Below are positions 3,028 to 61,917 of a stretch of 64,000 bases of DNA, piece after piece. The first letter of the stretch is position 1, and each line of letters starts with the position of its first letter. The notes under the pieces were generated by a model that did not search any database, had not been told where the DNA came from, and saw only the letters and a program-made list of their open reading frames with translations. The DNA is taken from contig NZ_LMTZ01000129.1 of the NCBI RefSeq assembly GCF_001456025.1, forward strand, positions 83,029 through 147,028. Reading direction: 5' to 3'. The position numbers and the translations under genes were made by a program. This DNA is from Mastigocoleus testarum BC008 (lineage in GTDB: Bacteria > Cyanobacteriota > Cyanobacteriia > Cyanobacteriales > Nostocaceae).

Positions 3028-3671
3028 TGCTCAACTGGCGCAAACTTCGAATTTTACTGTTAACTATTAACTTTATTGGCATTATCATTGTCCTGGTAAT
3101 TACAATCGTCAAACCAGTTCAATCTTGGCTACCTACTACTTCCCACGCTTTTCCAAATAAAATATCTTTGCCTCAGTGGGAACAGGTTCAGAGTGGTAAA
3201 TTATCAGAAACCAACCTAAAAAAACCCGAAATAATTGCACAAAAGCATTATCGCTATGTGCAGAATAATTTATCTTTAGATATTGAAATGCGTTATCTAA
3301 CACTTATAGAAGGGGAAAAATTTATCAAAAAATATTTGGGAATTACTTCTCCTGTGGAAGTGCGATCGCGAAAAGGTATTGGTTATTACGGTATTGGAGT
3401 AGAAAAACAAAAAGCCTTCCTCAGTGCTTGTATTACTTCCGGGGGTGTCACTAGCTTTACTGAGGAACAGTTTGAAAAAAATCATTATTTTTCGATTCTG
3501 GAACCACAAAGTTTAATCTCTTGGTTATTGGGTCGCAGAACGAGCACAGACAAGCATTGTATGTGGGCATATTTATCAGTTCCTCTTGGCAAACATAAGC
3601 CAGAATTTGCTTATCAAGTGTTAGAAACAGCCTGGGTTTCTTGGTATCAACAGTGGAACTCTCACCTGTAA
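3027..3671 (+). CDS. Cyanoexosortase A system-associated protein
   Basis: This 214-residue protein has one N-terminal membrane anchor (about residues 7-29, ILLLTINFIGIIIVLVITIV) followed by an extracytoplasmic domain. Its start codon overlaps the stop of the cyanoexosortase gene by one base, so the two are translationally coupled. Size, topology and position match the small protein that always follows cyanoexosortase A, which is distantly like the EpsI domain found fused to or beside other exosortases. Its molecular role in the family is not established; it probably assists the exosortase or the linked polysaccharide machinery. The assignment leans on gene context as well as sequence. Confidence 0.82.
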   Translation: MLNWRKLRILLLTINFIGIIIVLVITIVKPVQSWLPTTSHAFPNKISLPQWEQVQSGKLSETNLKKPEIIAQKHYRYVQNNLSLDIEMRYLTLIEGEKFIKKYLGITSPVEVRSRKGIGYYGIGVEKQKAFLSACITSGGVTSFTEEQFEKNHYFSILEPQSLISWLLGRRTSTDKHCMWAYLSVPLGKHKPEFAYQVLETAWVSWYQQWNSHL

Positions 3672-3751
3672 CAGGGTTAGGGTTGAATTAAGTTTTACTG
3701 AAATTAGTAATAAAATTAGCGATTAAAATTTCTGTTTTTGGTGTGTAAAAA

Positions 3752-4459
3752 ATGACTAAATCCCATAGCGATAAATTTGTTTCTTCGGTACAGGACTTTG
3801 CTTTTAGTCAAGAAGGTTCAACAATGATTTTGCGGTGTTTAGGATATGGCTTGTTAGTCTTGGCACTGTTTGATGTTGTAGAAATGTTTGTGCCACCAAA
3901 TTTTATGAATCCTGCATGGGAGTTTCAAACCATAGGTGCATTAGTTGAAAGAGTTCCAGTACCCTTAATTGGTTTAGCATTTGTGTTTTATGGCGAGATG
4001 AATTTCCGCAAACGCTGGGAATTTCCCGTATTAAAAGTTTTATCTTGGTTGGCTTTAGTAATGGGAGTGATTTACATACTGTCCATTCCTTTAGGAGTTA
4101 TTAATGCAGCTAGACTCCAGAGACAAAGCTCTACCCAAATTAATGTCTTATCAAAACAACAGATTAATCGCGCCGAACAAGTAAAGAAACAAATTGATTT
4201 GGCTACACCAGAACAAATTGATAATTTACTCAAGCGTCAAGGTCGCTCTTTGGAGCTAGAACCAGAAAAGTTAAAACAAAGACTTTTAGGCGAAGTATCC
4301 CAAGCCAAACAAAAAATTAAAAGTCAAGCAAAAGCTACAGAATCAAGTAGAGGTTTAAATTTACTCAAGAAAGCAGTGAAATGGAATCTCGGTGCGGTAG
4401 TTGCAGGAATTCTTTGCATCAATATTTGGAAAGGGACTGATTGGGCAAGAATGAATTAA
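3752..4459 (+). CDS. HpsJ-like protein, cyanoexosortase A-associated
   Basis: This is a 235-residue membrane protein, third in the exosortase block and 80 bp downstream of the second gene. It has hydrophobic segments near residues 28-46, 67-82 and 93-117, then a long charged, probably coiled-coil stretch (about 125-205, rich in Gln, Lys and Glu), then a last hydrophobic segment near the C-terminus. This layout matches the HpsJ-like proteins that accompany cyanoexosortase A. HpsJ itself belongs to the hormogonium polysaccharide (hps) locus of filamentous cyanobacteria, so a role in exported polysaccharide and gliding is a reasonable inference. A bidirectional terminator follows the stop codon. 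Confidence 0.75.
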   Translation: MTKSHSDKFVSSVQDFAFSQEGSTMILRCLGYGLLVLALFDVVEMFVPPNFMNPAWEFQTIGALVERVPVPLIGLAFVFYGEMNFRKRWEFPVLKVLSWLALVMGVIYILSIPLGVINAARLQRQSSTQINVLSKQQINRAEQVKKQIDLATPEQIDNLLKRQGRSLELEPEKLKQRLLGEVSQAKQKIKSQAKATESSRGLNLLKKAVKWNLGAVVAGILCINIWKGTDWARMN

Positions 4460-4470
4460 AGCAAAAAGGA

Positions 4471-4505
4471 AAAACCCTCTCGAATTGTGAGAGGGATAAT
4501 TTTTA
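4471..4505. terminator. Bidirectional Rho-independent terminator
   Basis: A perfect 7-bp stem, CCCTCTC (4475-4481) and GAGAGGG (4489-4495), has a 7-base loop. It is followed on the plus strand by ATAATTTTTA. On the minus strand the same stem is followed by TTTTTCCTTTTT. It therefore can end both the exosortase block and the convergent rpe transcript. Confidence 0.8.
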
Positions 4506-4573
4506 CGAACAAAATCATCTAATTTTATTAGTTAGTTAAATGTTTGTCGCTGCTGATGGTGAATCAACAAAAA

Positions 4574-5278
4574 CTATGAAGCTTTTGCTAATTCTGGACG
4601 TTTACTATTACGAATACCTTCGATTGCTTGAGCATAATCGTCTGCTTTGAATACAGCAGAACCAGCTACAATTGCATTTGCTCCTGCTTCTAAAACTTGC
4701 CAAGTATTATTAGCTTTTAAACCGCCATCTACTTCAATCCAAGGATCTAGTCCGCGTTCGTCGCACATGGTTCGTAACTGACGGATTTTTGGTACTACGC
4801 CGGGGATAAAGCTTTGACCGCCAAAGCCAGGATTGACGCTCATGATTAAAACCATATCGCATAGATCCAAGCTATATTCAATTAAGTTCAGTGGAGTTCC
4901 AGGATTGAGTACGACTCCTGCTTTTTTACCTAATTCTTTAATTTGTCCCAAAGTACGGTGTAGGTGAGGGGAAGCATTATGCTCGCAATGAACATAAATA
5001 TGATCTGCTCCTGCTTTGGCAAAGTCCCCAACATACTTTTCCGGTTCCACGATCATTAAGTGGACATCTAATGGTTTCTGAGTGACTGGACGAATGGCCT
5101 CCACTACCAGAGGACCGATTGTAATATTGGGTACAAAACGACCGTCCATTACGTCGACGTGGATCCAATCTGCTCCTGCTGCATCTACAGCACGAATCTC
5201 TTCTCCAAGACGACTAAAATCCGCTGATAAAATCGATGGAGCAACTACAATGGGCTTTTGAGATGAGTTATTGGTCAT
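4574..5278 (-). CDS. rpe: Ribulose-phosphate 3-epimerase
   Basis: This enzyme interconverts ribulose 5-phosphate and xylulose 5-phosphate in the Calvin cycle and the pentose phosphate pathway. The TIM-barrel motifs are all present: the opening [10 protein letters not shown], the metal-binding [18 protein letters not shown], the phosphate-binding [10 protein letters not shown], and IEVDGG with the catalytic Asp. I start the protein at the ATG 5278-5276 (234 residues, [15 protein letters not shown]), because the upstream in-frame extension of 15 residues is not part of the family. It is a single gene convergent with the exosortase block and shares its terminator. Confidence 0.96.
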
Positions 5279-5409
5279 GGTTAGCGGGTATTCAAGCGTC
5301 CTCTTCTGTATGCATTGTAACAAAACATTGATTAATTAATTCATTAATGAAAAGTTATTTAGTTATTTATCGGAAAATTGGGGACTGGGTACTGGCGACT
5401 AGGTATAGC

Positions 5410-5485
5410 AACTGCGTGCCGCCTTGCGGCATAGAGGCTGCGGCGTCGGCGGATCCGCAAGGTGACGTTAGTAACAGCCTCTAGC
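5410..5485. repeat. Interspersed palindromic repeat with GGCGTCGGCG core
   Basis: A GC-rich patch sits in AT-rich spacer. It holds the small palindrome TGCCGC-CTT-GCGGCA (5417-5431) and longer arms AGAGGCTG (5433-5440) and CAGCCTCT (5475-5482) around a GGCGTCGGCG core. The same core lies inside the hairpin at 25656-25708, so both appear to belong to one dispersed repeat family. The small palindrome recurs near 56160 and 56210. Confidence 0.65.
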
Positions 5486-5607
5486 GTCTAGCCTCTGGGG
5501 ACTGGGAACATGAATATCTTAGATACTTGATACTTAATCAGCAATCATTGATACCAGTTAATTTTGTTGATTTTTCTTTACCATTAGCTTAACTGTCTGC
5601 TACACAA

Positions 5608-8117: not shown

Positions 8118-8291
8118 GTACTATTATCAAATGTAAAATCTTACAATATTTTTGTAAGCTATTATATTGGTAGTTCGTCATAATCAAATTGCTGGTATTT
8201 AGTATAGTGTTATCTATTATCAATAAAACTATACTATGTGCCAACAAAAATTTATTTGAGCTTCTTGTGTTGAGTATAGGGTTAAGTGAAT

Positions 8292-8840
8292 TTAAACTTG
8301 TACTGATGGAGATGTGATCGAAATTGCTTCGGGTGGGATTAAACTTCTATGAGTAGGAAAGGCTTCTCCTTGTTCTAGTTTTGCTCTCAAAATTAAGCTT
8401 TCTCCATCAATATCAGATATGGTGATGGCATTAATAGTAAAATCAAAATTACTATAGGCATAGACAGTTGGGTCAGGAATAATATTAGCAATCTTAGAAG
8501 AATTTCTAATCCCAATAATTGTCACAATTGCTACTACGAATGGAGAGACAAATAATTTATTGCTTTCGTTAGAACTTTTAGCACACCACTCCAGAGTTAA
8601 GGTGCTTGCAGTATGAGGAATTTTCCGAGACAAAGATTGGATTTCAACAGGATTACCATCAATACTTAAACTGAAGTAGTCTTTTTCTTCATATTGATGA
8701 CAGTCAAGCGGAGCGATGGAATTAATGCTTATTTTCTCATGAAGAGGAAGTCCGCTTAGGGTCAATACTTTCGGTTGTATTGGGACTTCAGATAAATCTT
8801 CTTCTGTTGAACTTTTGAAGAAGTTATTGTTGTTATACAT
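8292..8840 (-). CDS. Hypothetical protein
   Basis: I do not recognise this 182-residue protein. Its start is supported by a good ribosome binding site, GAGGG, four bases ahead of the ATG at 8840. It has no signal peptide and only one short hydrophobic stretch (LFVSPFVVAIVTIIGI, about residues 96-111). The remainder alternates beta-like strands with polar turns and ends in a Ser/Pro-rich tail. The sequence reads as ordinary soluble protein, so I take it as a real gene. Its neighbours give no functional hint. Confidence 0.6.
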   Translation of the reverse strand: MYNNNNFFKSSTEEDLSEVPIQPKVLTLSGLPLHEKISINSIAPLDCHQYEEKDYFSLSIDGNPVEIQSLSRKIPHTASTLTLEWCAKSSNESNKLFVSPFVVAIVTIIGIRNSSKIANIIPDPTVYAYSNFDFTINAITISDIDGESLILRAKLEQGEAFPTHRSLIPPEAISITSPSVQV

Positions 8841-9512
8841 TATCCCTCATGTTGTTTTGCTAAACCTTTAAAGATTACTCTTCAGGACTTACGCGATTTA
8901 CTTGATCGGTAGTTTTTAGTTCAGGAAGCTCAAACTTAAAACTGTATAGTACTTGTGTTAGGTCTCACTAGCGATCGCGCGAACTTGATCGCAGGTTAGT
9001 CTTTGTGTAAATAGCAAGAGGAATTTCACAGTTCTTGGTTTAAAACGTATTAGTTACTGTTAGAGATTTGATTGAATTTACCTCAAGCTATAAACAGATA
9101 AACAATTATCCGTTTGCCTTATAACTCTGTAAGGTTTTCGGACATAGTTTATGGTATCGTACGAAACTTCTCTATCACCGAAGAATAAAGTGATATTTTT
9201 GATTCTGTTCTATAGTTGATATGGTGCAGTCATATTGCCATAAAAATCCACTCGAACACCGTAGAACGAAATGAATGTATGAATGAAGAGTGAGGGATTA
9301 ATCTCGTTTCTATCGGAATAATTTTACAACTATCATTTGTATTGAAACACAATACTCCGCTGCTATTTAGGAAATCAATCGGAGTATTTCGGAAATTTTT
9401 TGGGATTAAAGGCTCATCTATTAACACTTTCGAGTCTCAAATAGTACTAGTATTTATCTGTGAAGCTCTAGCTCTGTTTATCACTGATATGAAAGCACTA
9501 TAAAAATTTTCA
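8841..9512. other. Intergenic region without a supported gene
   Basis: About 670 bp holds a possible 65-codon minus-strand frame at 9230-9427, which I judge to be chance. A GGACTTACGCG-like segment near 8884 resembles short motifs dispersed in Nostocales spacers. Nothing else is supported. Confidence 0.45.
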
Positions 9513-10037
9513 TTAAACCCCAAGTACACCAGTATAGTTTTTTTGTATCGCTGGTAATACTGCCAACTCCGGGTTAATATTTCCCAACTGATAATCTAAC
9601 TGCCAAGTACTATAGGAAGCTGGGTTTACTCTTCGCGTGAAAGCTGCAATATTGGCACCTGTAATCTGATGTAATCTGTGGATGAACTCAGTACCAGAAT
9701 CTCCGACTGCAACATCACGACCATAAAGAATAATATTGGGAACGGACCAAGTAATTAGCTGTGGAGCATAACGGTTAAGAGAAAATAAGCCTAAATGACT
9801 TTTTCCCAAATATAAACACCCTGGGGAACCGTGAGAAATAATATGAAGACTTGTAAGGCGATCATATTCCTGCAAAGTTAATGTGATTTGTTGCACTTCA
9901 TATTCATTTGCTTGAATTAAAACTACCTCAGCTTTGCCAAGAATTTTTGGAACTATACTTTGACAATCTTCTATATTAGGGTCAATCGCAACTAGAGTAT
10001 GAACAGGCTGAAAACGGAAACTATGATCTAAATGCAT
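9513..10037 (-). CDS. Standalone DUF4347 domain protein with a changed Cys position
   Basis: The 174 residues are essentially one DUF4347 domain, which in cyanobacteria is usually the N-terminal part of very large secreted repeat proteins. The visible family motifs are LVAIDPNIEDCQSIV, LHIISHGSPGCLYLG, SVPNIILYGRDVAVGDSG, and LHQITGANIAAFT. Family members normally read LLYGCxVAxG at the third motif; here the Cys is Arg. The SHG and YGC motifs resemble the His and Cys dyad region of caspase or CHAT-like folds, so this copy would lack the nucleophile if that comparison holds. The start is the ATG at 10037 with AGGAG nine bases upstream. There is no large downstream partner, so this looks like a detached or shrunken copy. 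Confidence 0.78.
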   Translation of the reverse strand: MHLDHSFRFQPVHTLVAIDPNIEDCQSIVPKILGKAEVVLIQANEYEVQQITLTLQEYDRLTSLHIISHGSPGCLYLGKSHLGLFSLNRYAPQLITWSVPNIILYGRDVAVGDSGTEFIHRLHQITGANIAAFTRRVNPASYSTWQLDYQLGNINPELAVLPAIQKNYTGVLGV

Positions 10038-11167
10038 CAATTAAGACTCCTACTGAGCGTTCTGTCCGTAGACGCATTGCTCTGAGACCTTCAAGCTACA
10101 ACAACAAAACGCTTGTCACGCTGATATTGTTGAGCTAAAAATATTGCTTGTCAGCCGGAAAAAGGTAGTGGAAAGTTAAGTTAAATGAGTTTAGTCCCAA
10201 AATTAATTTCATATTCTGCTGTTATTGCTCTAGATAATAAACTATTTTTCTATTGAAGTTGAATATTTTACACATCTGAGAGTAATATTTTAATACCTAT
10301 GAACTACTTAGGGGACAGATATCAAAAAAGATTCAAAATCTGAAATAACAAAATAATCATGGTGTTGGTGATAAATTAAAAATGAGCAATAAGGGGTAGA
10401 AACAGGAAGATAATACTTGGACAAAAATGGATAATAATGGATCTTTTGTCCAATTATTATAGAACTGATAAGAGATAAGAAATTAGGAATCAAGGATAGT
10501 AATCAAGATATTTATTATTTCAGTCTTTAAAGACTAAATCCTAAATTCCTATTTTCCATCCCTGAGTCGCTAATCCCTATTTGATGGGATATTTTATTTT
10601 TTGAATTAGATTAGGTCATAAGATATAACAGGGCAACCATTGTAAGAGGTTTATTACTGCAAATTATCAATTTTATTGGTGGTGTTACAGATTTAGAGAA
10701 ATAAGCTAGATAATCGAGTTTATTCTAATAGAATATCTTACCCGACTTAAGTTTATAGGGCAGTAGATACAACCCTGATATCGCGAGAAGCCATTTCTAT
10801 TTGCCATTTAAATTGAGATGTAGATGCACAAGCCCGATCCTCCGTAAAACCACTTTGGTATGAGTAGGAATATTACTCGTTGCTATTTTTAAGCTAAAAA
10901 TAAAGATTGTCAGCTAGGAAAAGTTAAGGAATAGGTAGTTTAACAATTTGCAATTTGGTGTTTGTAATAAATCAAAAATTATCACTATAATTATGATTTG
11001 AATATAAATTTATTTAGAGTTAAAAATAATAATCGAATATTATAATTATATAAAAAGTGGTAAAATTGATAGAAGGCTATTAATCGTATTTATGGCTATT
11101 TGACTTAGATATGATGAATTTTATTACTTTTATATATAGCTTTTGATAGTTGTTTCAATAAATGTTT
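10038..11167. other. Long intergenic region with a diverged duplicated segment
   Basis: About 1.1 kb contains no supportable gene; a 61-codon minus-strand frame at 10308-10493 looks like chance. Two segments, 10132-10164 and 10891-10923, share the pattern AGCTAAAAATA followed by TTGTCAGC and GGAAAA. They read as diverged copies of one element of about 33 bp. Confidence 0.5.
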
Positions 11168-12583
11168 TCAATAAACATGTATTAGTGGTATTTTAATTAC
11201 AAAATTAATACCCACACTATCGCAAATAATGTATTCCAAACTACCACAATGATTTTCTACTATTAATTCTCTACTAATAGAAAATCCCAGATGATTTCGT
11301 TCTTCTTTAAAGGCATTAGTAAAGTTTTGTTTGATTTCATCAATTGGTGAATCGTGCAAGGTGAAAGCATTATTTTCAATTCTGATAATGATATTTTCTT
11401 TGTCTAAATCGGTAATTATTTTTAGTTGTAGATTTAATAGCTGTGCTAATGTATCGCTACCAGGAACTATTTTATGTTCTGATAAATTATGGTTATAGAT
11501 GTATGATTTTTCCAAACTATCAATTAAATAATTTAGTAAATACATAAACACTTGATTTAACTGTCCTGGATAACATCCAACTTTTGGTAAGTTACCGTAC
11601 TGTTTAATTACTTTAATCGGAGGACGTTTTGTTTGTGCCTTGATTCTATACTGTAAAATCATCAAGGTAGTCTCAATCCCTTCATGAATATCAATATATT
11701 TTTTTTCTACCCCATCCGCACGAGAAAAATTTTGTAAGGATTGTATTATCCCACGGATATTATCAGTCCCTAGTTTCATTGATGAAAGTAGTTTTGGTAA
11801 ATCTTGTAAAATATGTGGCAAATCCATACTATCGATTTTTTCTGAAATCTCTATACTAAAATCAGGAAATTTATGTTGATAGATTTTTACTAGATCGATT
11901 AAATCTTGAATATACTGGTTGGCATAATATAAATTAGTAGAAATTAAACCAACTGGATTATTAACTTCATGAGATACTCCAGCCACAATTTGACCTAAAG
12001 CGGAAGTTTTTTCGCTTTGAATAAGTTTTAATTGAGTTTGTTTGAGTTCTTCTAATGTTTGGGAAAGTTCTGCTGTTCTTTCTTTAACTCTATCTTCTAA
12101 TTGTTGTTTTTGTAGGGTTAATTCTAGGTTTAAATATCGTAGTTTTAAGTGTAACTTTACTCGGGCTAATACTTCTTCTTGTTGAAAAGGTTTAGTGATA
12201 TAGTCTACAGCACCTAGTGTTAAACCCTTGAGTTTTTCTTCTGCTTCAGTTAGAGCTGTAATAAAAATAATTGGAATATCTTTAGTTGCTGGATTTGCTT
12301 GAAGTTGACGACAAGTTTCAAAACCATCTATTTTAGGCATCATTACATCTAAAAGTATTAGGTCGGGTGGATTTTGATTTACTTGTTCTATCCCACTCAA
12401 ACCATCCATTTCTACAAGTACTTCATAGCCTGCATAACTCAATGTTTCGTATAAAACTTCTAAGTTTGTTGGACTGTCATCAATTACTAATATAGTCTTT
12501 AAATGATTGTGATTCTCATTTTTAATTTGAGATGGATTATTGATATTTTCAGTTTCAAATTCCATATATTCTATGTTCTCCAA
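11168..12583 (-). CDS. Response regulator-histidine kinase hybrid with degenerate ATP-binding domain
   Basis: The protein has 471 residues. An N-terminal receiver domain (about 30-150) looks intact, with the acidic pair IDD, the phospho-acceptor Asp79 in LLDVMMP, and a conserved KPF. A coiled coil follows, then a dimerisation segment with His205 in HEVNNP, typical of cyanobacterial kinases. The ATPase domain is eroded: the N-box reads YLLNYLID where relatives have NLLNNAID, the G1 box DNGxGI is replaced by IENNAF, and the G2 box retains only HLGFSIS. ATP binding is therefore doubtful. The protein may be a scaffold or phospho-relay for the full hybrid kinase encoded 53 bp upstream on the same strand, probably in one operon. 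Confidence 0.88.
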   Translation of the reverse strand: MENIEYMEFETENINNPSQIKNENHNHLKTILVIDDSPTNLEVLYETLSYAGYEVLVEMDGLSGIEQVNQNPPDLILLDVMMPKIDGFETCRQLQANPATKDIPIIFITALTEAEEKLKGLTLGAVDYITKPFQQEEVLARVKLHLKLRYLNLELTLQKQQLEDRVKERTAELSQTLEELKQTQLKLIQSEKTSALGQIVAGVSHEVNNPVGLISTNLYYANQYIQDLIDLVKIYQHKFPDFSIEISEKIDSMDLPHILQDLPKLLSSMKLGTDNIRGIIQSLQNFSRADGVEKKYIDIHEGIETTLMILQYRIKAQTKRPPIKVIKQYGNLPKVGCYPGQLNQVFMYLLNYLIDSLEKSYIYNHNLSEHKIVPGSDTLAQLLNLQLKIITDLDKENIIIRIENNAFTLHDSPIDEIKQNFTNAFKEERNHLGFSISRELIVENHCGSLEYIICDSVGINFVIKIPLIHVY

Positions 12584-12636
12584 ATATCATACTAAATTTA
12601 AAATAATATCCAAAATTATTCGAAGCGCTTAAAATA

Positions 12637-15006
12637 CTATTCCTGAATATTTTCTTTCAGAAAACTACGGATATTTTTGATGTTAAAGTCTTTCAATAGT
12701 GAGTTAAGATGATTTACAAAGTCTTGATATTCACTATTAATATCTGCTATTTTTTCTAACTCCTCAATGATTCCTTTGATTTGTCCTTTTTTTGCATAAT
12801 CTAAAAGCATAACTAGTTCTGATGATGAGGGAAAAATGATTGATTCTTGTTGTTTTTGATTTGGATGTATTTCTAAAAAGTTATCTGAGTCGGCATATTT
12901 CCAATTAATATCTAACTCTCTTTCAATTAATCTATATAGTTCTTCATCCTGTATTGGTTTAATCAGAAAATACTTTACTTCTAAGGAATTGATTTTCTCT
13001 TTACTTTGATCTGAAATACTTGTAGAAGTTAAGATAAATGGTATATCTTTCAAGTTTTGATGGCTATCCACATAGCAAAGCATTTCCCAACCATCTAAAA
13101 TGGGCATGTATATATCAGAAATGATTAGGTCGGGCTGATACTCCTTGGCTTTTTCTAATCCTTCTTTACCATTTTTAGCTTCGATCAGATCGAATCCAAG
13201 TGGTTCTAAAATATTTACAATTAAAAGACGATGTTCCCAAAGGTCATCAACAATAAGAATTTTTTTTTGTTCTCCAGAATAGCCAATAATTTTTCTATTT
13301 TTAATATGTATATTTTTTTCTTTATAACTTTCAACAACAGGACATTTAATTTCAAATATAAAACTGCTACCTTTACCTAATTCACTATCTACTTCTATAT
13401 AACTTTCCATAAGCTCAATCATTTTTTGGCTGATTGATAATCCTAATCCGGTACCATCTTTATAATTTTTAGAATCTACTACTTTTTCAAAGGGTAAAAA
13501 AATTTTTTCTAAATCAGCTTCATTAATTCCGACTCCAGTATCTCGAACCACAAATTTAATTTTTATTTCAGAATCTGTAAGATGACTAATTATGACTTTA
13601 AATGTGATACTTCCTTGATCGGTAAATTTCAGAGCATTACCAAGTAAATTAATAATTACTCTCCGTAATTTCTGCCTATCTGTAGCTATTACTGATGGTA
13701 AATTATCTGGTATCTCATATATAAATAGGATATCTTTTTGTTGAGCCTGAATTCTATATATATCTATAATTTCTTCTAGGAAATATCGTAATTTAAAATC
13801 TGAAATTTTCAGGTCAATCGCATTTAAATCTATTTTAGAAAATTCTATAATATCATTAATTAATGTTAGTAAATGCTCGGCACATTTATGAATTACTTTA
13901 ATCCCTCTTTCTTCTTTCTGTGTAATATTTGAAGAGTTATGAAGAACTTGAGTGTATCCTAGGATACCATTTAGAGGTGTAAGAAGTTCGTGACTGATAT
14001 TTGCCATAAATCTTCTTTTTACTTGATTGGCTACATCGCATGCTTTTTCAGCTTCTTGATTAGTTATAACCAAATTTTTCATTTTAATAACTATTTGATT
14101 GAGGTAATAAGTAATATCCCCGAACTCATCCTGACTTGTAGTAGACAATTCCACTGTAAAATTCGAATTTTCTGCAATTTCTCTAACAAAAAGTTTGATT
14201 TTATTTAAGGGATAAATAATTATTTTTGCTGCGGAATATGTTAATAGATAAGTAGTGATTATGGTTAAGCAAATTCCGATCAAAATTATTATAAATCTTG
14301 AAAATTCAGCCTTTATTAACTCAACTGCTGCTTTCTCTTCTTTTTTCTCGGCTATGTTAATTATTAATCCTAATTCATCCGCTAAATATAATAATTTTTT
14401 ATTTGTTTTGCTTGCTGAAAAATCAGCTAATTCTTTTTGTACTTGGGGAAGTGTATTAGGTTTAGATTTTAAAGGCTCAATCTGATTTAATGTAGTATCT
14501 AAATTTTGAGATAACTTTTTGATCGTATCCCTATATTGAGTTAGTAATTCTTTAACTTCTGGGATAGAAAAATAACTTGGGGAATTATTGAATTTTTCTA
14601 AAAATGATGTGACTTTCGTGTGACTCTTAATAGCGACAACTTTTGCTTTATGGAGATTCTCTGTTTTTTGGCTAGAAGAAGAAAATCCTGTAATACTTTG
14701 GATTTCAAAAGCTGTGTGCCTTAATTTATTTAGTAAACGATGTTCTTGAGTAATTTTTATTTTTTGTTGTTTGGCACGATAATAATAATAGTCACCAATT
14801 GCGAAACTAGTAGTACTTCCCAAGACAGCAATACCAATGATAAATATATAAACAGATTTAATTTTTTGACTCAAACTCATATTGTTGCTTACTTGGGTTA
14901 TCCTCACAAAAGCATTTGACCATGAGGAGACGAATTTGATAAAAACAGCTTTCTCCTCGGAGGAATTACTTGTATAGGTTGGATGCTTGGGGTTGGGATA
15001 ACTCAT
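12637..15006 (-). CDS. Membrane hybrid sensor histidine kinase (HAMP-HisKA-HATPase-REC)
   Basis: This is a 789-residue hybrid kinase. Two membrane segments (about 53-75 and 235-256) flank a mostly helical extracytoplasmic sensor region of about 160 residues. A HAMP linker follows. The dimerisation domain carries His339 in ISHELLTPLNG. The ATP-binding domain is complete, with LLGNALKFT (N-box), VRDTGVGI (G1), FEKV and GTGLGLSIS (G2). A C-terminal receiver has Asp631 in ISDIYMP, and a helical tail of about 100 residues ends the protein. The sensor domain gives no clue to the ligand. The receiver-kinase hybrid with an eroded ATPase site lies immediately downstream, so the two probably form one signalling unit. 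Confidence 0.9.
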   Translation of the reverse strand: MSYPNPKHPTYTSNSSEEKAVFIKFVSSWSNAFVRITQVSNNMSLSQKIKSVYIFIIGIAVLGSTTSFAIGDYYYYRAKQQKIKITQEHRLLNKLRHTAFEIQSITGFSSSSQKTENLHKAKVVAIKSHTKVTSFLEKFNNSPSYFSIPEVKELLTQYRDTIKKLSQNLDTTLNQIEPLKSKPNTLPQVQKELADFSASKTNKKLLYLADELGLIINIAEKKEEKAAVELIKAEFSRFIIILIGICLTIITTYLLTYSAAKIIIYPLNKIKLFVREIAENSNFTVELSTTSQDEFGDITYYLNQIVIKMKNLVITNQEAEKACDVANQVKRRFMANISHELLTPLNGILGYTQVLHNSSNITQKEERGIKVIHKCAEHLLTLINDIIEFSKIDLNAIDLKISDFKLRYFLEEIIDIYRIQAQQKDILFIYEIPDNLPSVIATDRQKLRRVIINLLGNALKFTDQGSITFKVIISHLTDSEIKIKFVVRDTGVGINEADLEKIFLPFEKVVDSKNYKDGTGLGLSISQKMIELMESYIEVDSELGKGSSFIFEIKCPVVESYKEKNIHIKNRKIIGYSGEQKKILIVDDLWEHRLLIVNILEPLGFDLIEAKNGKEGLEKAKEYQPDLIISDIYMPILDGWEMLCYVDSHQNLKDIPFILTSTSISDQSKEKINSLEVKYFLIKPIQDEELYRLIERELDINWKYADSDNFLEIHPNQKQQESIIFPSSSELVMLLDYAKKGQIKGIIEELEKIADINSEYQDFVNHLNSLLKDFNIKNIRSFLKENIQE

Positions 15007-15396
15007 TCTGCTTTAAAATAAATGCATACAAGAATGGGTGATTCTACTAATTACATTTTTCCCAAATTAGTAAGCAGAATTCATATCAACCTTAGAAGGT
15101 TGTGAAAATATTGATTAATTGATAAGTATTTGTAATTATTCTTTGAATAATGATTTTCCCATCTCTATCCACAGAAGATTACCTACAAGAATCTCTCCTG
15201 CTCTTCCCACCCTTCCCTTTATCAATCAATTAAGAACCTTCTACCGGAATAGGAATAACGGGTGATTTAGATTTACTCAAAGTCTTTCTGGCACAATGAA
15301 ATTAGTATTTTGTAATTGTCGATATAGCAAGCATCAATTAATATGCAACCTATTTACGCTATAAGTAAAGAGATTTGAACCTGAGGAGTTAGATTT
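15007..15396. other. Divergent promoter region
   Basis: This spacer of 390 bp separates the minus-strand kinase operon from a plus-strand small membrane protein gene. It should carry both promoters. No specific box, RNA or repeat could be assigned. Confidence 0.45.
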
Positions 15397-15672
15397 ATGA
15401 GGGTTTGGCTTGCTTGCTTTTTTGTCTTGTTTGCTTTAGCAGAATTCTTTGACTGGGTGAAAGAATTATCTTTACCACTACCGATTTATATTTTAGGTGG
15501 AGCATTTTTAGCAGTTGCTTCCAATTACAACAGATTAGTTGCTCCGTATTTGAGTAATTCAAGCGATACAGCACTTGAAGGATCGTCAGAACAGTTGCAG
15601 CTTGAAGCATTAGAGCGAGAAAAGTCTAACGTAAATGAAGCTGTTTCTTCCCAGTTGGAAGGTTCTCAGTAA
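15397..15672 (+). CDS. Small conserved-looking membrane protein of unknown function
   Basis: This 91-residue protein has two N-terminal hydrophobic helices (about residues 2-20 and 27-44) and an acidic, polar C-terminal tail. A strong ribosome binding site, GAGGAG at 15383-15388, lies eight bases before the ATG, which supports it as a real gene. I do not recognise the family. The neighbours are a kinase operon on one side and a convergent permease-like gene on the other. Confidence 0.68.
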   Translation: MRVWLACFFVLFALAEFFDWVKELSLPLPIYILGGAFLAVASNYNRLVAPYLSNSSDTALEGSSEQLQLEALEREKSNVNEAVSSQLEGSQ

Positions 15673-15741
15673 ATTAAAAAATAAATTGCAGCAATAAATG
15701 AAGCCTTGACTATAAGAAATCACTAGAAGTTTAATCTATTC

Positions 15742-16317
15742 TTATTCATCAACTTCTTTGGGTTTTGGTAGAAGCTTTGAGACGAGAAATGCTGTTAGCT
15801 CCAAGATTTGGTCTAGCAAAAAGCCGATGGTACCAATATAGGCGATCGCTTCAATAATATAGTTAATATTGCCATTATTGTAAGCATCCCATAACAAAAA
15901 GCCTACACCACTACCACCAGTTAGCATTTCTGTTGCGATTACTGCAAACCAAGCAACCCAAACACCCTGTCTTAAGGCATAAAATATATATTCGATCGCC
16001 AGTTGTAAATTATTACCGCGATTGCGAAAAGCTTGTACGCCTGCTGCTGTTTGAACGATAATTGTCCACAAAGAACCAACGAATACCACAACAATTGATG
16101 CGGGTTCTGGTTGTCTGAGGAGAATTAGAGCTAAAGGTAGAAAAGCGATGGGAGTTACACTATGGGGAATTTGGAATAGTCGCTTACATATTTGATAAAT
16201 CAGACGGTTAATACCAACCAAAATCCCGATCGCAATACCAAATGCAGCAGCAGGTGTATATCCCACAAACAAAAGTTGCAGGCTATTTAAAATATCTAAA
16301 AATATATTTGTTCCCAT
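15742..16317 (-). CDS. NrtB/CmpB-like ABC permease homologue lacking the EAA coupling loop
   Basis: This 191-residue membrane protein matches the permease subunit of nitrate/bicarbonate/taurine-type ABC importers, most clearly in the C-terminal half (ATEMLTGGSGVGFLLWDAYN, YIGTIGFLLDQI). Typical permeases are about 250-280 residues and have, between GVQ and the AWL helix, an EAA loop that docks on the ATPase. Here GVQAFRNRGNN runs directly into the helix LAIEYIFYALRQGVW, so about 20 residues including that loop seem to be missing. No ATPase or binding protein gene is nearby. I use the ATG at 16317; a GTG at 16359 would add 14 residues. It may be an adapted membrane protein rather than a working transporter subunit. 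Confidence 0.72.
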   Translation of the reverse strand: MGTNIFLDILNSLQLLFVGYTPAAAFGIAIGILVGINRLIYQICKRLFQIPHSVTPIAFLPLALILLRQPEPASIVVVFVGSLWTIIVQTAAGVQAFRNRGNNLQLAIEYIFYALRQGVWVAWFAVIATEMLTGGSGVGFLLWDAYNNGNINYIIEAIAYIGTIGFLLDQILELTAFLVSKLLPKPKEVDE

Positions 16318-56368: not shown

Positions 56369-59083
56369 ATGGATTTAATTCTCTGTCATACAACAGCCGA
56401 TTTTGATGCTTTGGGAGCAGCAGTCGGGCTCAGACTTTTATTACCTGGTAGCAAGATAGTGTTACCTGGAGGTAGTCATCCAGGTGTGCGGGAATTTTTG
56501 GCTTTGCATCGCGATGAATATCCCCTAATTGAAAGACGTTCGGTAAATCCCCATGATATACGTACTCTGGCTGTGGTGGATACTCAACAACGCGATCGCT
56601 TAGGAAAGGTTGCAGAGTGGTTTGATTTACCCAATATTAAAGAAGTAATTGTTTACGACCATCACTTAGAGCAAAAGTTAGATCTTCCTGCGACCAAATC
56701 TTATATTTCACGGGTGGGTGCGGTAACAACGTTGATTGTTGAACAATTACAGCAGCAGCAAATTTCCCTGACGCCTTCAGAAGCAACGGTGATGGCTTTG
56801 GGTATTCACGCTGATACTGGTTCACTAACTTACGACTTGGCGACATCGCGGGATGCTTTGGCTTTAGCTTGGCTGATGGAGCAAGGTGCAAGTTTGTCTA
56901 TTGTTGCTGAGTATGCAGAACCTGGCTTGTCTACAGAATTACAACAACTGTTAACCCTTGCATTGGATAATTTGCAAACTCAAGAAATTCGAGGGTATAA
57001 AATTGCTTGGGTAACTTTGAATACTGATAATTTTGTACCGGGATTGTCTACTTTGGCATCAGAGTTATTGGAATTGACAGAAATTGATGCTTTAATTCTG
57101 GTAAATAATATAAAGCAAGATGGTAATAACCGTTTGAGCATCATTGGGCGATCGCGAATTAAGAATAGTAACCTCAATGATATTTTCAAGGGATTAGGTG
57201 GAGGAGGTCACGCTCAAGCTGCTTCATTAAGCTTGCGGAATGCAGATGCTAAAACAATACTAAATGAAGTTTTGGAAGAGTTAAGGGCGATTATTCCCCA
57301 TCCCCCAACTGCTAGGGATTTAATGTCTTCACCGGTACGCACGATTCTCCCACAAACTACTATTGAGGAAGCTCATCGCACTTTATTGCGTTACGGACAT
57401 TCGGGTTTATCAGTAGTTGACGGGAAAAAACATTTGGTGGGAATTATTTCTCGACGCGATCTAGATATTGCCCTGCATCACCGTTTCCCCCATGCACCCG
57501 TTAAGGGCTACATGACAAAAAATCTTAAGACTATTACGCCAGATACTACGCTGCCACAAATTGAGTCCTTGATGGTAACTTACGATATTGGGCGCTTACC
57601 GGTATTGGAAAACGAACGCCTAGTTGGTATTGTCACTCGTACGGATGTTTTGCGGGAATTACATCAGGAAAGAGAAGCTTCAGAAGGAAGAAACGGAGAA
57701 GGAGATAGCGGACTCGTAGAAGATCGAGTTAATTTACCGACTTTAGGAGAACTACGTTCTCGCCTTGCACCTCCCCTGTGGGAATTTCTCACCAAAGCAT
57801 CATTGCAAGCAAAGCAACGGGGATGGCATCTTTACTTGGTTGGGGGAGCAGTACGCGATCTGTTGTTAGCAAATCCCAATGAACCTTTGCTAATTCAAGA
57901 TATTGACATGGTAGTGGATGGTTTTCACAGTGCTGCTGATGTTGGTGCTGGGGTAGAACTAGCAAAAGCACTTCAAGAAATTTATCCTAATACCCGTTTG
58001 GAAGTTCATGGTTCTTTTCAAACTGCTGCTTTGCTCTGGCGCAAAGATCCAGTATTGGGTTCTATGTGGGTAGATATCGCAACTGCAAGAACAGAATTTT
58101 ACCCTTATCCTGCAGCAAATCCAGAAGTAGAAGCTAGTTCTATTCGGCAAGATTTATATCGACGGGATTTCACGATCAATGCTCTGGCGTTGCGACTTAC
58201 ACCACCTCGCCCAGGGAAATTGATGGATTTCTTTGGTGGTTTATTAGATTTACACGCCAAGCAAATTCGGGTTTTACACGTTAATAGCTTTATTGAAGAT
58301 CCGACTCGTATTTATCGCGCTGTTCGCTTCGCTGTTCGTCTCGGTTTTACAATTGAGTGCCAAACTGAAGAATATATCCGTTATGCGATCGAAAGCGGTG
58401 TTTACGATCGCACAACGAAGGAAAATCATAAAGCACCAGCTCTACAAACTCGTTTAAAAGCAGAATTAAAACATATCCTCCAAGCTTCTTACTGGAAAGT
58501 TGCTTTACAGTTATTAGGGGACTTGGGAGCATTACAGTGTATCCATCCTACACTGAAGTTAGACGACGAACTTTTGCGCCAGTTGCGGTTAATGGAACGT
58601 TGTTTGCAACGCTTTGACCCCGAGCAGCAAAGGTTTGTTCATTGGCAAATGCGCATAGAAGCAATAATTGCTTTTCTCAAACCAGAATATCGTTACTTAG
58701 TGGCTAAAAATCTTCAGTTACAAGATGAAAGTATTAGACGTTTGCAAAATTTAGCTTCAACCCAAGAAATAGTCTTGGAGTCTTTACCAGAGTGCGATCG
58801 CTCCAGCCAAATTGTTAAGCTATTAAGGCATTACGATTTACCTATGCTGATTTTAATTGCTCTACGCAGTCCGCGTAAAATTAGACAGCAAATTTGGCAT
58901 TATGCGACTGTTTTAGCAAATGTTCAACCAATTTTTAATGGGAACGATTTGAAAAAATTCGGTTACAAACCAGGACCAAAATATAAGCAGATTTTAGATG
59001 ATTTGTTGTCTGCTACTTTGGATGGAGAAATTACCAATAAGATTGAGGCAAAAGAGTTTTTAACTAAAAGTTATCCTTTATGA
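56369..59083 (+). CDS. DHH-CBS-nucleotidyltransferase (tRNA CCA/A-adding family)
   Basis: The protein has 904 residues from ATG 56369. The first part is a DHH phosphoesterase: the TTADFDALGAAVGL, VVDTQQRDRLG, VYDHHLE and HADTGSLTY motifs, then a DHHA1 part with LGGGGHAQAAS near residue 275. Two CBS repeats follow (SSPVRTILPQTTIEEAHRTL; YDIGRLPVLENERLVGIVT). The last 430 residues are a class II nucleotidyltransferase with LVGGAVRDLLL and DIDMVVDG (two catalytic Asp) and an RNA-binding helical tail. This architecture belongs to proteins that add the CCA end, or only the terminal A, to tRNA in bacteria with split CC/A activities; the exact specificity is open. A repeat cluster directly precedes the true start. 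Confidence 0.92.
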   Translation: MDLILCHTTADFDALGAAVGLRLLLPGSKIVLPGGSHPGVREFLALHRDEYPLIERRSVNPHDIRTLAVVDTQQRDRLGKVAEWFDLPNIKEVIVYDHHLEQKLDLPATKSYISRVGAVTTLIVEQLQQQQISLTPSEATVMALGIHADTGSLTYDLATSRDALALAWLMEQGASLSIVAEYAEPGLSTELQQLLTLALDNLQTQEIRGYKIAWVTLNTDNFVPGLSTLASELLELTEIDALILVNNIKQDGNNRLSIIGRSRIKNSNLNDIFKGLGGGGHAQAASLSLRNADAKTILNEVLEELRAIIPHPPTARDLMSSPVRTILPQTTIEEAHRTLLRYGHSGLSVVDGKKHLVGIISRRDLDIALHHRFPHAPVKGYMTKNLKTITPDTTLPQIESLMVTYDIGRLPVLENERLVGIVTRTDVLRELHQEREASEGRNGEGDSGLVEDRVNLPTLGELRSRLAPPLWEFLTKASLQAKQRGWHLYLVGGAVRDLLLANPNEPLLIQDIDMVVDGFHSAADVGAGVELAKALQEIYPNTRLEVHGSFQTAALLWRKDPVLGSMWVDIATARTEFYPYPAANPEVEASSIRQDLYRRDFTINALALRLTPPRPGKLMDFFGGLLDLHAKQIRVLHVNSFIEDPTRIYRAVRFAVRLGFTIECQTEEYIRYAIESGVYDRTTKENHKAPALQTRLKAELKHILQASYWKVALQLLGDLGALQCIHPTLKLDDELLRQLRLMERCLQRFDPEQQRFVHWQMRIEAIIAFLKPEYRYLVAKNLQLQDESIRRLQNLASTQEIVLESLPECDRSSQIVKLLRHYDLPMLILIALRSPRKIRQQIWHYATVLANVQPIFNGNDLKKFGYKPGPKYKQILDDLLSATLDGEITNKIEAKEFLTKSYPL

Positions 59084-59195
59084 GTAATGAGTAATAAGTA
59101 ATGAGTAATAAGTAATGAGTAATAAGTAATAAGTAATGAGTAATAAGTAATGAGTAATGAGTAATAAGTAATGAGTAATAAGTAACAAGTAATGT
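59083..59195. repeat. Heptamer array (AGTAATA / AGTAATG)
   Basis: About 15 tandem 7-bp units with A/G variants follow immediately after the stop codon of the nucleotidyltransferase, identical in type to the array at 33590-33660. Confidence 0.85.
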
Positions 59196-59280: not shown

Positions 59281-59346
59281 TACCAATTACCAATTACCAA
59301 TTACCAATTACCAATTACCAATTACCAATTACCAATTACCAATTAC
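59281..59346. repeat. Heptamer array (AATTACC)
   Basis: Nine near-perfect tandem copies of AATTACC stand just before the end of the GMC-DUF1080 gene. Confidence 0.85.
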
Positions 59347-59367: not shown

Positions 59368-61917
59368 TTACAATTCCCGAATCCGAATATTACGGAATTG
59401 CACAACCTCAGTATGACATTGCAACCCAATGTAACCTTCGGAACGCTTTTTATTACCGTCGCTGGGAGCGTCAAAACCTAGAAGTTCGGCAAAAGTTCCG
59501 GAACTAACTAATAGATCGTTTAATTTGACCTCGATTTCATTACCTTGAACTCTAATTTCATAACTATTCCAACAGTTTGTTTTTCCTGAATTACGAGATT
59601 GAAAAACTTTTGCAGCCCAACGCTGAGCGGGGAAAATTTCGTAGACAGATCCTGTCTTGTGCAGGGGACTTCCGTAGATGTCGTTGGTAAAGTCGTATCC
59701 CTGTTCGTCAATTTGAACTTCAATGCTGGAATCATAAAAATCATTAGCATTTAATGTCTCCGGATCTGGCATCCGTAAGAAAATTCCCGAATTAGCTTCT
59801 ATATCGAAAGCCCGCCAATCTAACTTGAGGATAAAATCCTGAAACTTTTGGCGTGTAAACCAGACTACACCCAAGGAAACATTATTATTACCAAGTCCTG
59901 CACCAAGTACGGGATAAGGTTGATTGGAAACATCAAAGAAGTTTTGACTTCCCAAACTTGTAATTTTCCAGCCGTCATTAAGGAAGTTTCCACTATACAA
60001 GGTTTGAAATCCTGGTTCATCTCCAACAAAATCAACAGACTGATAACGTTCGATAATTGAACCGGCAATTTTGCGGGATAGGGCTATGCCAGTTGGAACT
60101 GGATTGGCTGAACCTACGGTGGGGAAAATTGACTGATCCACGCAATAACAGTTGCTCACGTGGTGAAAACGACCATTGGCATCCGTAACAGACTTGGTAT
60201 AATCTGTACCTATCCACAAAGTACCTGACTCATGATAAGTGGTACCAATACCGTCTGCACCTCCTCCACAGTATTCAATGGGTGCGTTTGGATCTTGAAT
60301 CCCCGCACTTCCTGAGGGCTGATTTGTTAAAGCTTCAATAAAAGCAAACGCTGCTTGAGATTGGTTATTACGAACGGCTACATCGTCACTATTTTCTACT
60401 AAATTTACATAGGCTTTGGGAACTCGAAGTTGTTCTGTACCGTATACATCGTCCCCTGTTCCTCCAAAGGGATTGACACCTATCCAACTGACATTGGGAT
60501 TACTACCAACGGGACTGGTGCGATCGCCAAAGGTTTCGCCCACGGTACGAATTCTGACTACAATGCGGTCGTTACCAATTCCTCGCTGTGCTTCCCGAAT
60601 TGATTCCACATCTTCGATGTTCGGCACCATTTGGTAAAGAAATCTTTCTGGATCTTTACTGGCACCGGGAAAGACAGGAACATCCATATTAGGAGCAGCG
60701 TAAAATTGAAAGTGAAATTGTCCCACGCCTTGGTTTGTCTGTGTGGAACCAGTAATATGAAGGGCTGCCGTTTTGATGACGGTAGGATCTGGTTGGGGGA
60801 GATTAAGAGCATCCCGTCTGATGCGCCAAGTAAAATTATCGCGGACGTGAAACATTAAATTGCGCCCCATTAATTCTCCTGTTGGAGCTAATTGCTGTGG
60901 GCGAGGGAAAGAATTTAAAGCTAACCTGGTGGAATTAATGGTGTTTCCTGCAATGACTACCATTGCGCTTGGTTTGAGATCCAAACGTACTACGCGAGCT
61001 TTACTCTTATCCTGGGGGTTAGCCGGATCGATTAATGCCACTACAACTTGAGTTACGCGCCCATTAACAGTTTCCAGTTTTAAAACTTCTGCATAGGGAA
61101 CCAAGAACAACTTGCGCTGTGCATCACTTCCACCACTAATTTCAGCATCTTCACGGATCGAGTCCAATAGTAAAGGAAGGCTGCTAAATTTATCAAGACT
61201 GAATAACCCAGATCCTGGAGTCTCTCCTTGAACTGCAATGGGTGGTGCTAATACAGCTTTGAGAGAATTAACTTTGTTGTCACTGACAACTTCTTCACTC
61301 TTAGTTTTTAAATTTTCATATAAAGGACCCCGAATAAAATCTTGAACTGGGTAAGCACCTATTTCGCGTTCAATATATTCATATCCATCCTGTTGATTAT
61401 TTTGAAACAGATATTCTTTGACATCATCAGGCCAAAGCAAATCCCCATCTGTATCGACTTTGTCTAAATCTTCTTCTACGAGGCGCGGAGACCAGCCTCC
61501 CCAAAATAAAGACTTTCCACCAATACAGCGATGATGTTGTACAAAAGTGTTTTCGTTAGTTTGTCCTGGTTCAACTAAGTTTTCTAAGACTAAAGAGCCA
61601 ATATTACCAATACGAGTTAAGTTTTGTACGTGCTCGGTAATTAAAAAAGGACCTGACTCCAAAACCAAAACTCGAGGAGCTTGATTTTGTTGATCCATCC
61701 GCCTGCCAAATTCAAATAGCTTTGCTGCTGTGTAGGCTCCATACATCCCCGAGCCAATAACAATTGCATCAAATTGTCCGCCTCCTTGAGCCCCAAGAAT
61801 CTCTTCCCAAGTATTGCAAACAAAACGCGATACACCATCTAAAGAAAACGTTGTTCTTTGAACGTCAGGAACTGTCTGAATTGGTTCCCCGGAATCCTGT
61901 AATCGGTTCAAAACCAT
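59368..61917 (-). CDS. GMC oxidoreductase fused to a DUF1080 (3-keto-glycoside hydrolase-like) domain
   Basis: This is an 849-residue fusion. Residues about 50-620 are a GMC-type FAD oxidoreductase: DAIVIGSGMYGAYTAAK binds FAD, GKSLFWGGWSPR follows, and the C-terminal catalytic part has His562 in TTYHESGTLWIG and GSANPVPTG. Residues about 635-849 form a DUF1080 domain (concanavalin-like sandwich), with GFQTLYSGNFLNDGWK, DFILKLDWRAFDIEANSGIF, SIEVQIDEQG and the ending GYIGLQCHTEVVQFRNI. DUF1080 members cleave 3-keto sugar glycosides. I infer that one chain could oxidise a sugar hydroxyl and then cut the bond. There is no clear signal peptide. Heptamer arrays lie just after its stop. Confidence 0.88.
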   Translation of the reverse strand: MVLNRLQDSGEPIQTVPDVQRTTFSLDGVSRFVCNTWEEILGAQGGGQFDAIVIGSGMYGAYTAAKLFEFGRRMDQQNQAPRVLVLESGPFLITEHVQNLTRIGNIGSLVLENLVEPGQTNENTFVQHHRCIGGKSLFWGGWSPRLVEEDLDKVDTDGDLLWPDDVKEYLFQNNQQDGYEYIEREIGAYPVQDFIRGPLYENLKTKSEEVVSDNKVNSLKAVLAPPIAVQGETPGSGLFSLDKFSSLPLLLDSIREDAEISGGSDAQRKLFLVPYAEVLKLETVNGRVTQVVVALIDPANPQDKSKARVVRLDLKPSAMVVIAGNTINSTRLALNSFPRPQQLAPTGELMGRNLMFHVRDNFTWRIRRDALNLPQPDPTVIKTAALHITGSTQTNQGVGQFHFQFYAAPNMDVPVFPGASKDPERFLYQMVPNIEDVESIREAQRGIGNDRIVVRIRTVGETFGDRTSPVGSNPNVSWIGVNPFGGTGDDVYGTEQLRVPKAYVNLVENSDDVAVRNNQSQAAFAFIEALTNQPSGSAGIQDPNAPIEYCGGGADGIGTTYHESGTLWIGTDYTKSVTDANGRFHHVSNCYCVDQSIFPTVGSANPVPTGIALSRKIAGSIIERYQSVDFVGDEPGFQTLYSGNFLNDGWKITSLGSQNFFDVSNQPYPVLGAGLGNNNVSLGVVWFTRQKFQDFILKLDWRAFDIEANSGIFLRMPDPETLNANDFYDSSIEVQIDEQGYDFTNDIYGSPLHKTGSVYEIFPAQRWAAKVFQSRNSGKTNCWNSYEIRVQGNEIEVKLNDLLVSSGTFAELLGFDAPSDGNKKRSEGYIGLQCHTEVVQFRNIRIREL

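Follow-up and report, generated by a model that had tools for sequence, protein, structure and literature searches.

Oxidative cleavage of glycosides has been described as a pathway of separate proteins (PMC9007349; PMC10646112). In Caulobacter, the lactose 3-dehydrogenase LacABC is reported to act together with a separate DUF1080 protein, CCNA_01705, and a further DUF1080 protein, THTE_1561, is reported to be an endo-xanthanase/lichenase (PMC9007349). The original prediction, an earlier reading of the DNA analysed here, started from the premise that DUF1080 proteins cleave 3-keto sugars whose keto group is introduced by separate oxidoreductases, and proposed that both steps could take place in one polypeptide. 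The products of the GMC glycoside 3-oxidase PsG3Ox are H2O2 and a 3-keto-glycoside, and the enzyme depends on H440 and N484 (PMC10646112). The class and the features of DyP-type peroxidases have been described (PMC8197335), and one of these enzymes, DyP2, is reported to couple phenolic O-glycosides and to free some of the sugar (PMC11107159). In vitro, GlxA supplies H2O2 to the DyP DtpA, the same source reporting no strong physical interaction between the two proteins and no boost over horseradish peroxidase (PMC4736821).

The window, i.e., the whole 64,000-nt stretch of Mastigocoleus testarum BC008 DNA that was analysed, encodes a GMC oxidoreductase and a DUF1080 domain in a single gene (59368..61917, minus strand), identified from its ORF, from Pfam and from full-length relatives. 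As predicted, the frame is unbroken from ATG to stop and encodes 849 aa; the strand, which the prediction left unstated, is minus. The GMC part spans residues ~45-622 (60052..61785, minus strand; PF05199 and profile colinearity) and includes G55, G57 and G60 of the FAD motif, H562, the putative GMC-type catalytic base (codon 60232..60234, minus strand), and N605. The DUF1080 or 3-keto-disaccharide hydrolase part corresponds to residues ~635-849 (59371..60015, minus strand; PF06439, and phmmer matches to BT2157 3osd/8rr2). Pfam cut-offs being 26.8 bits for PF06439 and 24.6 bits for PF05199, PF06439 (3keto-disac_hyd) was located at residues 677-847 (99.1 bits, E 4.1e-28), which places the last ~215 residues in DUF1080 as had been proposed, and GMC_oxred_C (PF05199) at residues 498-613 (52.1 bits, E 1.4e-13). 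Pfam also detects PF06439 in the relatives L020, L027 and L028. The claim that the GMC motifs are complete is supported by PF05199, by G55/G57/G60, H562 and N605, and by the N-terminal part aligning by profile with Burkholderia glucose dehydrogenase; the GMC N-terminal family PF00732 was unreported at E≤1. In agreement with the prediction, the protein has no evident signal peptide, as judged by hydropathy only (peak of 0.40 over 15 residues within the first 50).

The G+C content of the fusion gene is 42.5%, versus 36.4% in the remaining window, and two arrays of 7-base tandem repeats lie directly downstream of the gene (59080-59194 and 59281-59346). An identical second copy of the fusion locus is present elsewhere in the window's assembly (G000 contigs C118 and C129), and this assembly (12.7 Mb, contamination estimate 37.52) therefore probably holds duplicated or mixed sequence. 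In this genome the fusion, in its two identical copies, is the sole PF06439 match.

A search for the same domain order across genomes, which the original prediction had put forward as a check, located it in cyanobacteria, in a Polyangiaceae MAG and in plasmids. Genome-by-genome sampling covered the cyanobacteria, other phyla being represented by single loci from pattern scans and by plasmids. Scanning contigs with six short peptide patterns yielded 13 loci, 12 of them with the full order in one frame: L009-L019, from records labelled cyanobacteria, and L020, from the Polyangiaceae MAG. Cyanobacterial contamination of the latter was rejected because the G+C content of the fusion (63.3%) is near that of its locus (65.7%). 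The Streptomyces locus L021 matches residues 19-618 only, scattered over separate frames. At E≤1e-30, and with the window's own genome counted, the fusion protein was matched in 5 of 386 genomes of the phylum and in 10 of 291 genomes of the order; in G581 a contig end truncates the match, and in G553 it is limited to residues 254-470. Six plasmid records match at E≤1e-10, and in two of them, from Nostoc sp. UHCC 0302 and Rhizobium leguminosarum, the match extends over 80% or more of the query; for Nostoc sp. UHCC 0302 the frame used is longer, the annotated gene starting 540 bases later. PF06439 was detected at E≤1e-5 in 7 of the 386 cyanobacterial genomes. In five of these seven the fusion accounts for the match, in frames that measure 823-887 aa and with E≤1.5e-28, and the matches in the other two (frames of 443 and 1260 aa) are weak but above the family cut-off (1e-7 and 7e-6).

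Fusion relatives show identities of 32-74%. Other relatives are partial: the GMC part alone in Cupriavidus (511 aa), a 516-aa frame lacking the N-terminal FAD motif in Bradyrhizobium, and an open frame of 305 aa on an Azospirillum plasmid (L031) that matches residues 559-849 only. In the Azospirillum stretch (L031:5917-8576) this frame is followed by an M4 metallopeptidase gene, and M4 peptidase and emfourin genes lie near the fusion in L027. Compared with the relative in L018, differences at codon positions 1/2/3 amount to 23/14/57% in the GMC part and to 21/13/57% in the DUF1080 part. Because the same domain order recurs in relatives and both parts are under coding constraint, chance or an assembly artefact was ruled out as the origin of the fusion; it is real and conserved across genomes.

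Conservation extends to individual residues. H562 and N605 are identical in all 23 aligned rows and, from the aligned ranges and provided that no gap precedes it, H562 lies opposite residue 467 of the HMF oxidase 6f97. Among the 21 aligned fusions, which go down to 32% identity with the window protein, G55, G57, G60, H562 and N605 of the GMC part are invariant, as are Y728, E733, Q735, D737, Y759, W783, N784, N800, Q833 and H835 of the DUF1080 part. The alignment matches E733, Q735, Y759, Q833, H835, R842 and N843 with BT2157; the first five lie in the E733-H835 stretch (59413..59721, minus strand). Some positions are less fixed: H753 is replaced by Glu in two fusions and K754 by Arg in one, R715 differs in two, R842 is Gly in one and N843 Arg in one, and S730 varies.

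We next consider the genes beside the fusion, for which 22 loci were counted (the window, L009-L020, L027, L028 and L040-L046, the last one cut by a contig start), excluding L033 and L047, which are duplicates, as well as L029, L030, L031 and L086, which are partial relatives. A DyP-type peroxidase gene adjoins the fusion on the same strand in 16 of the 22 loci, downstream in 13 and upstream in 3 (L020, L027 and L041). The two genes are 21 to 917 bases apart in 15 loci and 112 bases apart in L042. In L011, L016, L017 and L019 they are separated by small frames of 94-134 aa. All eight partner proteins scanned (L009, L020, L027, L040-L043 and L046) are recognized by Pfam DyP models, and the closest solved relatives of the L009 partner are AnaPX/Alr1585 (PDB 5c2i; E 1.6e-93) and DyP2 (4g2c; 7e-64). 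A C-terminal tail follows the peroxidase part in 11 of the 15 partner DyPs listed; this tail, a difference from AnaPX and DyP2, contains LysM in the three that were scanned with Pfam (L009, L040 and L046). The DyP of L042 (G451; 8287-9909) is of another kind, with Dyp_perox_N and Dyp_perox_C in place of DyP_N and with similarity to the L009 DyP confined to residues 342-437, which hints that it may have been recruited separately. In L019, a lipoxygenase gene (11389-13107) comes after the DyP gene.

Six of the 22 loci have no adjacent DyP gene (the window, L015, L018, L028, L044 and L045); as the window is one of them, the original prediction could not have noticed this neighbour. Across the genome of the window nothing matches the L009 DyP at E≤1e-3, in a type of search that can miss diverged DyPs, as it did that of G451 (L042); the fusion therefore works there without a close relative of that DyP. 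A DyP at E≤1e-30 is present in 42 of the 291 genomes sampled from the order. Six DyPs are at least 60% identical to that of L009 (G581, G436, G501, G064, G308 and G553), and all six adjoin the fusion or, in G553, a fusion remnant; the other places listed are at most 50% identical. Identities of fusions and of DyPs correlate (0.71 over 105 pairs), a value to which we give no weight because genes that are linked, and whose genomes are related, should correlate in this way.

The remaining DyP places of the order sample were fetched as 41 stretches (L080-L085 and L087-L121). In 28 of them (L080-L082, L084, L085, L087, L088, L091, L093-L100, L102-L108, L111, L113-L115 and L117) a galactose-oxidase-like gene (Kelch, GO-like E-set) is present on the same strand, adjoining the DyP gene in 27 cases and separated from it by one frame in the other. 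Its identity rests on Pfam in seven stretches (L080, L081, L084, L085, L087, L104 and L115) and on a profile built from three in the rest; the L106 gene is a fragment. No such gene was found in the other 13 stretches, several of which are cut by contig ends. The N-terminus is hydrophobic in 26 of the 28 galactose-oxidase-like proteins (hydropathy peak of 2.39-3.21, compared with 0.40 in the window's fusion; the two others reach 0.54, for the fragment, and 1.69), and is not hydrophobic in the DyPs listed (peak ≤1.12). Upstream of the galactose-oxidase-like and DyP genes, L096 (1981-3879) and L107 (2297-4138) have a GMC gene (613-632 aa; PF05199 and PF00732). Galactose-oxidase-like enzymes also make H2O2, and their genes beside so many DyPs suggest that cyanobacterial DyPs may often receive peroxide from an oxidase encoded close by.

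Taken together, the fusion and its linkage to DyP genes suggest an H2O2-making glycoside oxidase that would cleave its own product. The reading that we prefer, and hold with moderate confidence, is that of a two-step enzyme without a leader. In the first step, the GMC flavin domain would oxidise a ring hydroxyl of a glycoside, most likely at C3, with O2 being converted to H2O2; the oxidised product would then pass to the DUF1080 site, which would eliminate the aglycone, and the DyP-type peroxidase whose gene adjoins most of the related fusions would use or remove the H2O2. Precedents are LacABC acting with separate DUF1080 proteins (PMC9007349) and GlxA, whose H2O2 is used by DtpA in vitro (PMC4736821). 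What was observed is that the two domains are fused, that the fusion is conserved, down to the residues named above, and that it is linked to DyP genes, whereas we infer the acceptor O2, the C3 site, the order of the steps, the transfer between the sites and the substrate. Against it speak the window's genome, in which nothing matched the L009 DyP, the six loci where no DyP gene adjoins the fusion, two of which have an adjoining alpha-amylase-family gene instead, a GMC domain that is not placed among C3-specific enzymes, and the ordinary glycan-cleaving activity reported for one DUF1080 protein (PMC9007349).

With respect to the second step, the closest sequence matches of the DUF1080 part are BT2157 (3osd, 8rr2) and its relatives. 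Matched DUF1080 structures bear the titles 3-keto-glycoside eliminase/hydratase or 3-keto-2-hydroxy-glucal-hydratase, one of them with 3-keto-glucose bound, and the remaining ones carry the title "putative hydrolase". AlphaFold2 models built from shallow alignments were poor, both for the whole chain (13 sequences; mean pLDDT 42.3, pTM 0.41) and for the DUF1080 domain alone (pLDDT 51.3, pTM 0.61). When the domain model was submitted to Foldseek, DUF1080 structures ranked first, a ranking consistent with the sequence matches, at TM-scores of no more than about 0.5. The same poor model also gave weak fold matches to CBM66 and galectin structures, which would fit a DUF1080 part that is a carbohydrate-binding or targeting module in a sugar oxidase that simply feeds H2O2 to the peroxidase, no glycoside being cleaved. 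The galactose-oxidase-like neighbours of other DyPs also fit such a module, PF06439 being absent from the seven scanned with Pfam, since H2O2 supply alone would explain the pairing. That the sequence matches lead to BT2157 and its relatives, and that residues shared with BT2157 are invariant in all 21 aligned fusions and are not obviously needed for pure binding, makes us regard a binding role as rather unlikely.

Returning to the two-step reading, we compared the GMC domain with known enzymes by means of a profile built from the window protein and 10 relatives, 11 sequences in all. Its match to Burkholderia glucose dehydrogenase (E 2e-14) is made up of three colinear stretches, an N-terminal, a middle and a catalytic one; taken by itself, the middle stretch lacks significance (i-Evalue 0.41). 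The profile also matches the pyranose oxidase 9fl2 (3e-14), the HMF oxidase 6f97 (1.5e-12) and fructose dehydrogenase (about 4e-12). Because the domain is about equidistant from these four enzymes, its regiospecificity cannot be read from the matches, and neither sequence nor profile comparison placed it among C3-specific enzymes. The pyranose_ox equivalog TIGR02462 (NCBIfam) scores 23.2 bits, far below its cut-off of 544.9.

LacABC has a companion c-type cytochrome, and LacA is itself a GMC protein. The c-type haem motif CxxCH was found in none of the 134 ORFs of at least 80 aa located within 4 kb of the 22 fusion loci, a result that lends weak support to an oxidase over a cytochrome-linked dehydrogenase. 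This result, together with a DyP neighbour in both gene orders, which better fits regular H2O2 production, leads us to consider it improbable that the GMC part is a quinone- or cytochrome-dependent dehydrogenase, or acts at another carbon, with the DyP only guarding against side-product peroxide and the DUF1080 part taking another keto sugar. Glucose and fructose dehydrogenases are nevertheless among the best profile matches, and in Caulobacter it is with the LacABC dehydrogenase that a DUF1080 protein is described to act (PMC9007349).

L028 and L044, both lacking a DyP neighbour, have an alpha-amylase-family gene directly next to the fusion (8406-10313 and 3663-5552, respectively), and in L027 such a gene (13937-15832) lies near the fusion, not adjoining it. 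These genes were not accepted as proof of an alpha-glucan substrate: the amylase-family genes of L027, L028 and L044 have different best NCBIfam matches, and L045, with 95% DNA identity to L044 over 4775 bases, has no amylase gene in the stretch seen. That the DUF1080 part is an ordinary hydrolase of an unoxidised glycan, the GMC part oxidising the freed sugar, would agree with the adjoining amylase-family genes and with the activity reported for THTE_1561 (PMC9007349), but is very unlikely, as those DUF1080 structure titles that name a function all refer to 3-keto-glycoside eliminase/hydratase or 3-keto-2-hydroxy-glucal hydratase.

The two-step reading can be extended, speculatively and with low confidence, to a circuit of two genes in which the fusion, acting on a phenolic glycoside, would release one H2O2 and one phenolic aglycone per turnover, and the DyP would use that same H2O2 to oxidise that same aglycone to coupling radicals. 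Deglycosylation would then unmask and activate the phenol at once, and the pair would be a bacterial counterpart of fungal oxidase-peroxidase systems with the glycosidase built in. Independently of this extension, having both domains in one chain allows the hand-over of substrate to be tested directly, the linkage to DyP genes provides a lead on the bacterial role of DyP peroxidases, and a self-contained oxidative glycosidase, should the two-step reading be true, would be useful where glycosides withstand ordinary hydrolases. In the open-access literature searched, neither the fusion nor its link to DyP genes was found described, a negative that is weak given the limited scope of the search. 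The families and the logic of the pathway being already known, the one-chain form and the DyP linkage are what appears to be new.

Compared with known systems, the fusion shares the Pfam family PF06439 with BT2157 and related DUF1080 enzymes (PDB 3osd, 8rr2, 9fbe; 8tda, 8v31). The matched chains comprise 201-431 residues and have no room for a GMC part, whereas in the fusion DUF1080 is the C-terminal quarter. Glycoside 3-oxidases and pyranose oxidases (PsG3Ox, POx) are GMC flavo-oxidases to which the fusion is similar at the superfamily level only. The pair H440/N484 of PsG3Ox is of the same kind as H562/N605 of the fusion and, unlike in the one-chain fusion, cleavage is there described as the second step of a two-step pathway (PMC10646112). 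In the GlxA-DtpA system of Streptomyces, oxidase-made H2O2 is used by a DyP (PMC4736821), as we propose for the fusion and its neighbour; GlxA belongs to the radical copper oxidases and DtpA is exported as a Tat substrate, whereas the pair presented here consists of a GMC fusion and a DyP, both with no evident signal. LacABC and CCNA_01705 resemble the proposed scheme in that an oxidoreductase making 3-keto-glycosides works with a DUF1080 protein (PMC9007349), but they are separate proteins, with a membrane-bound dehydrogenase and a proposed periplasmic location. The fusion differs from them in being one chain with no evident leader and no c-type cytochrome nearby, and in often having an adjacent peroxidase.
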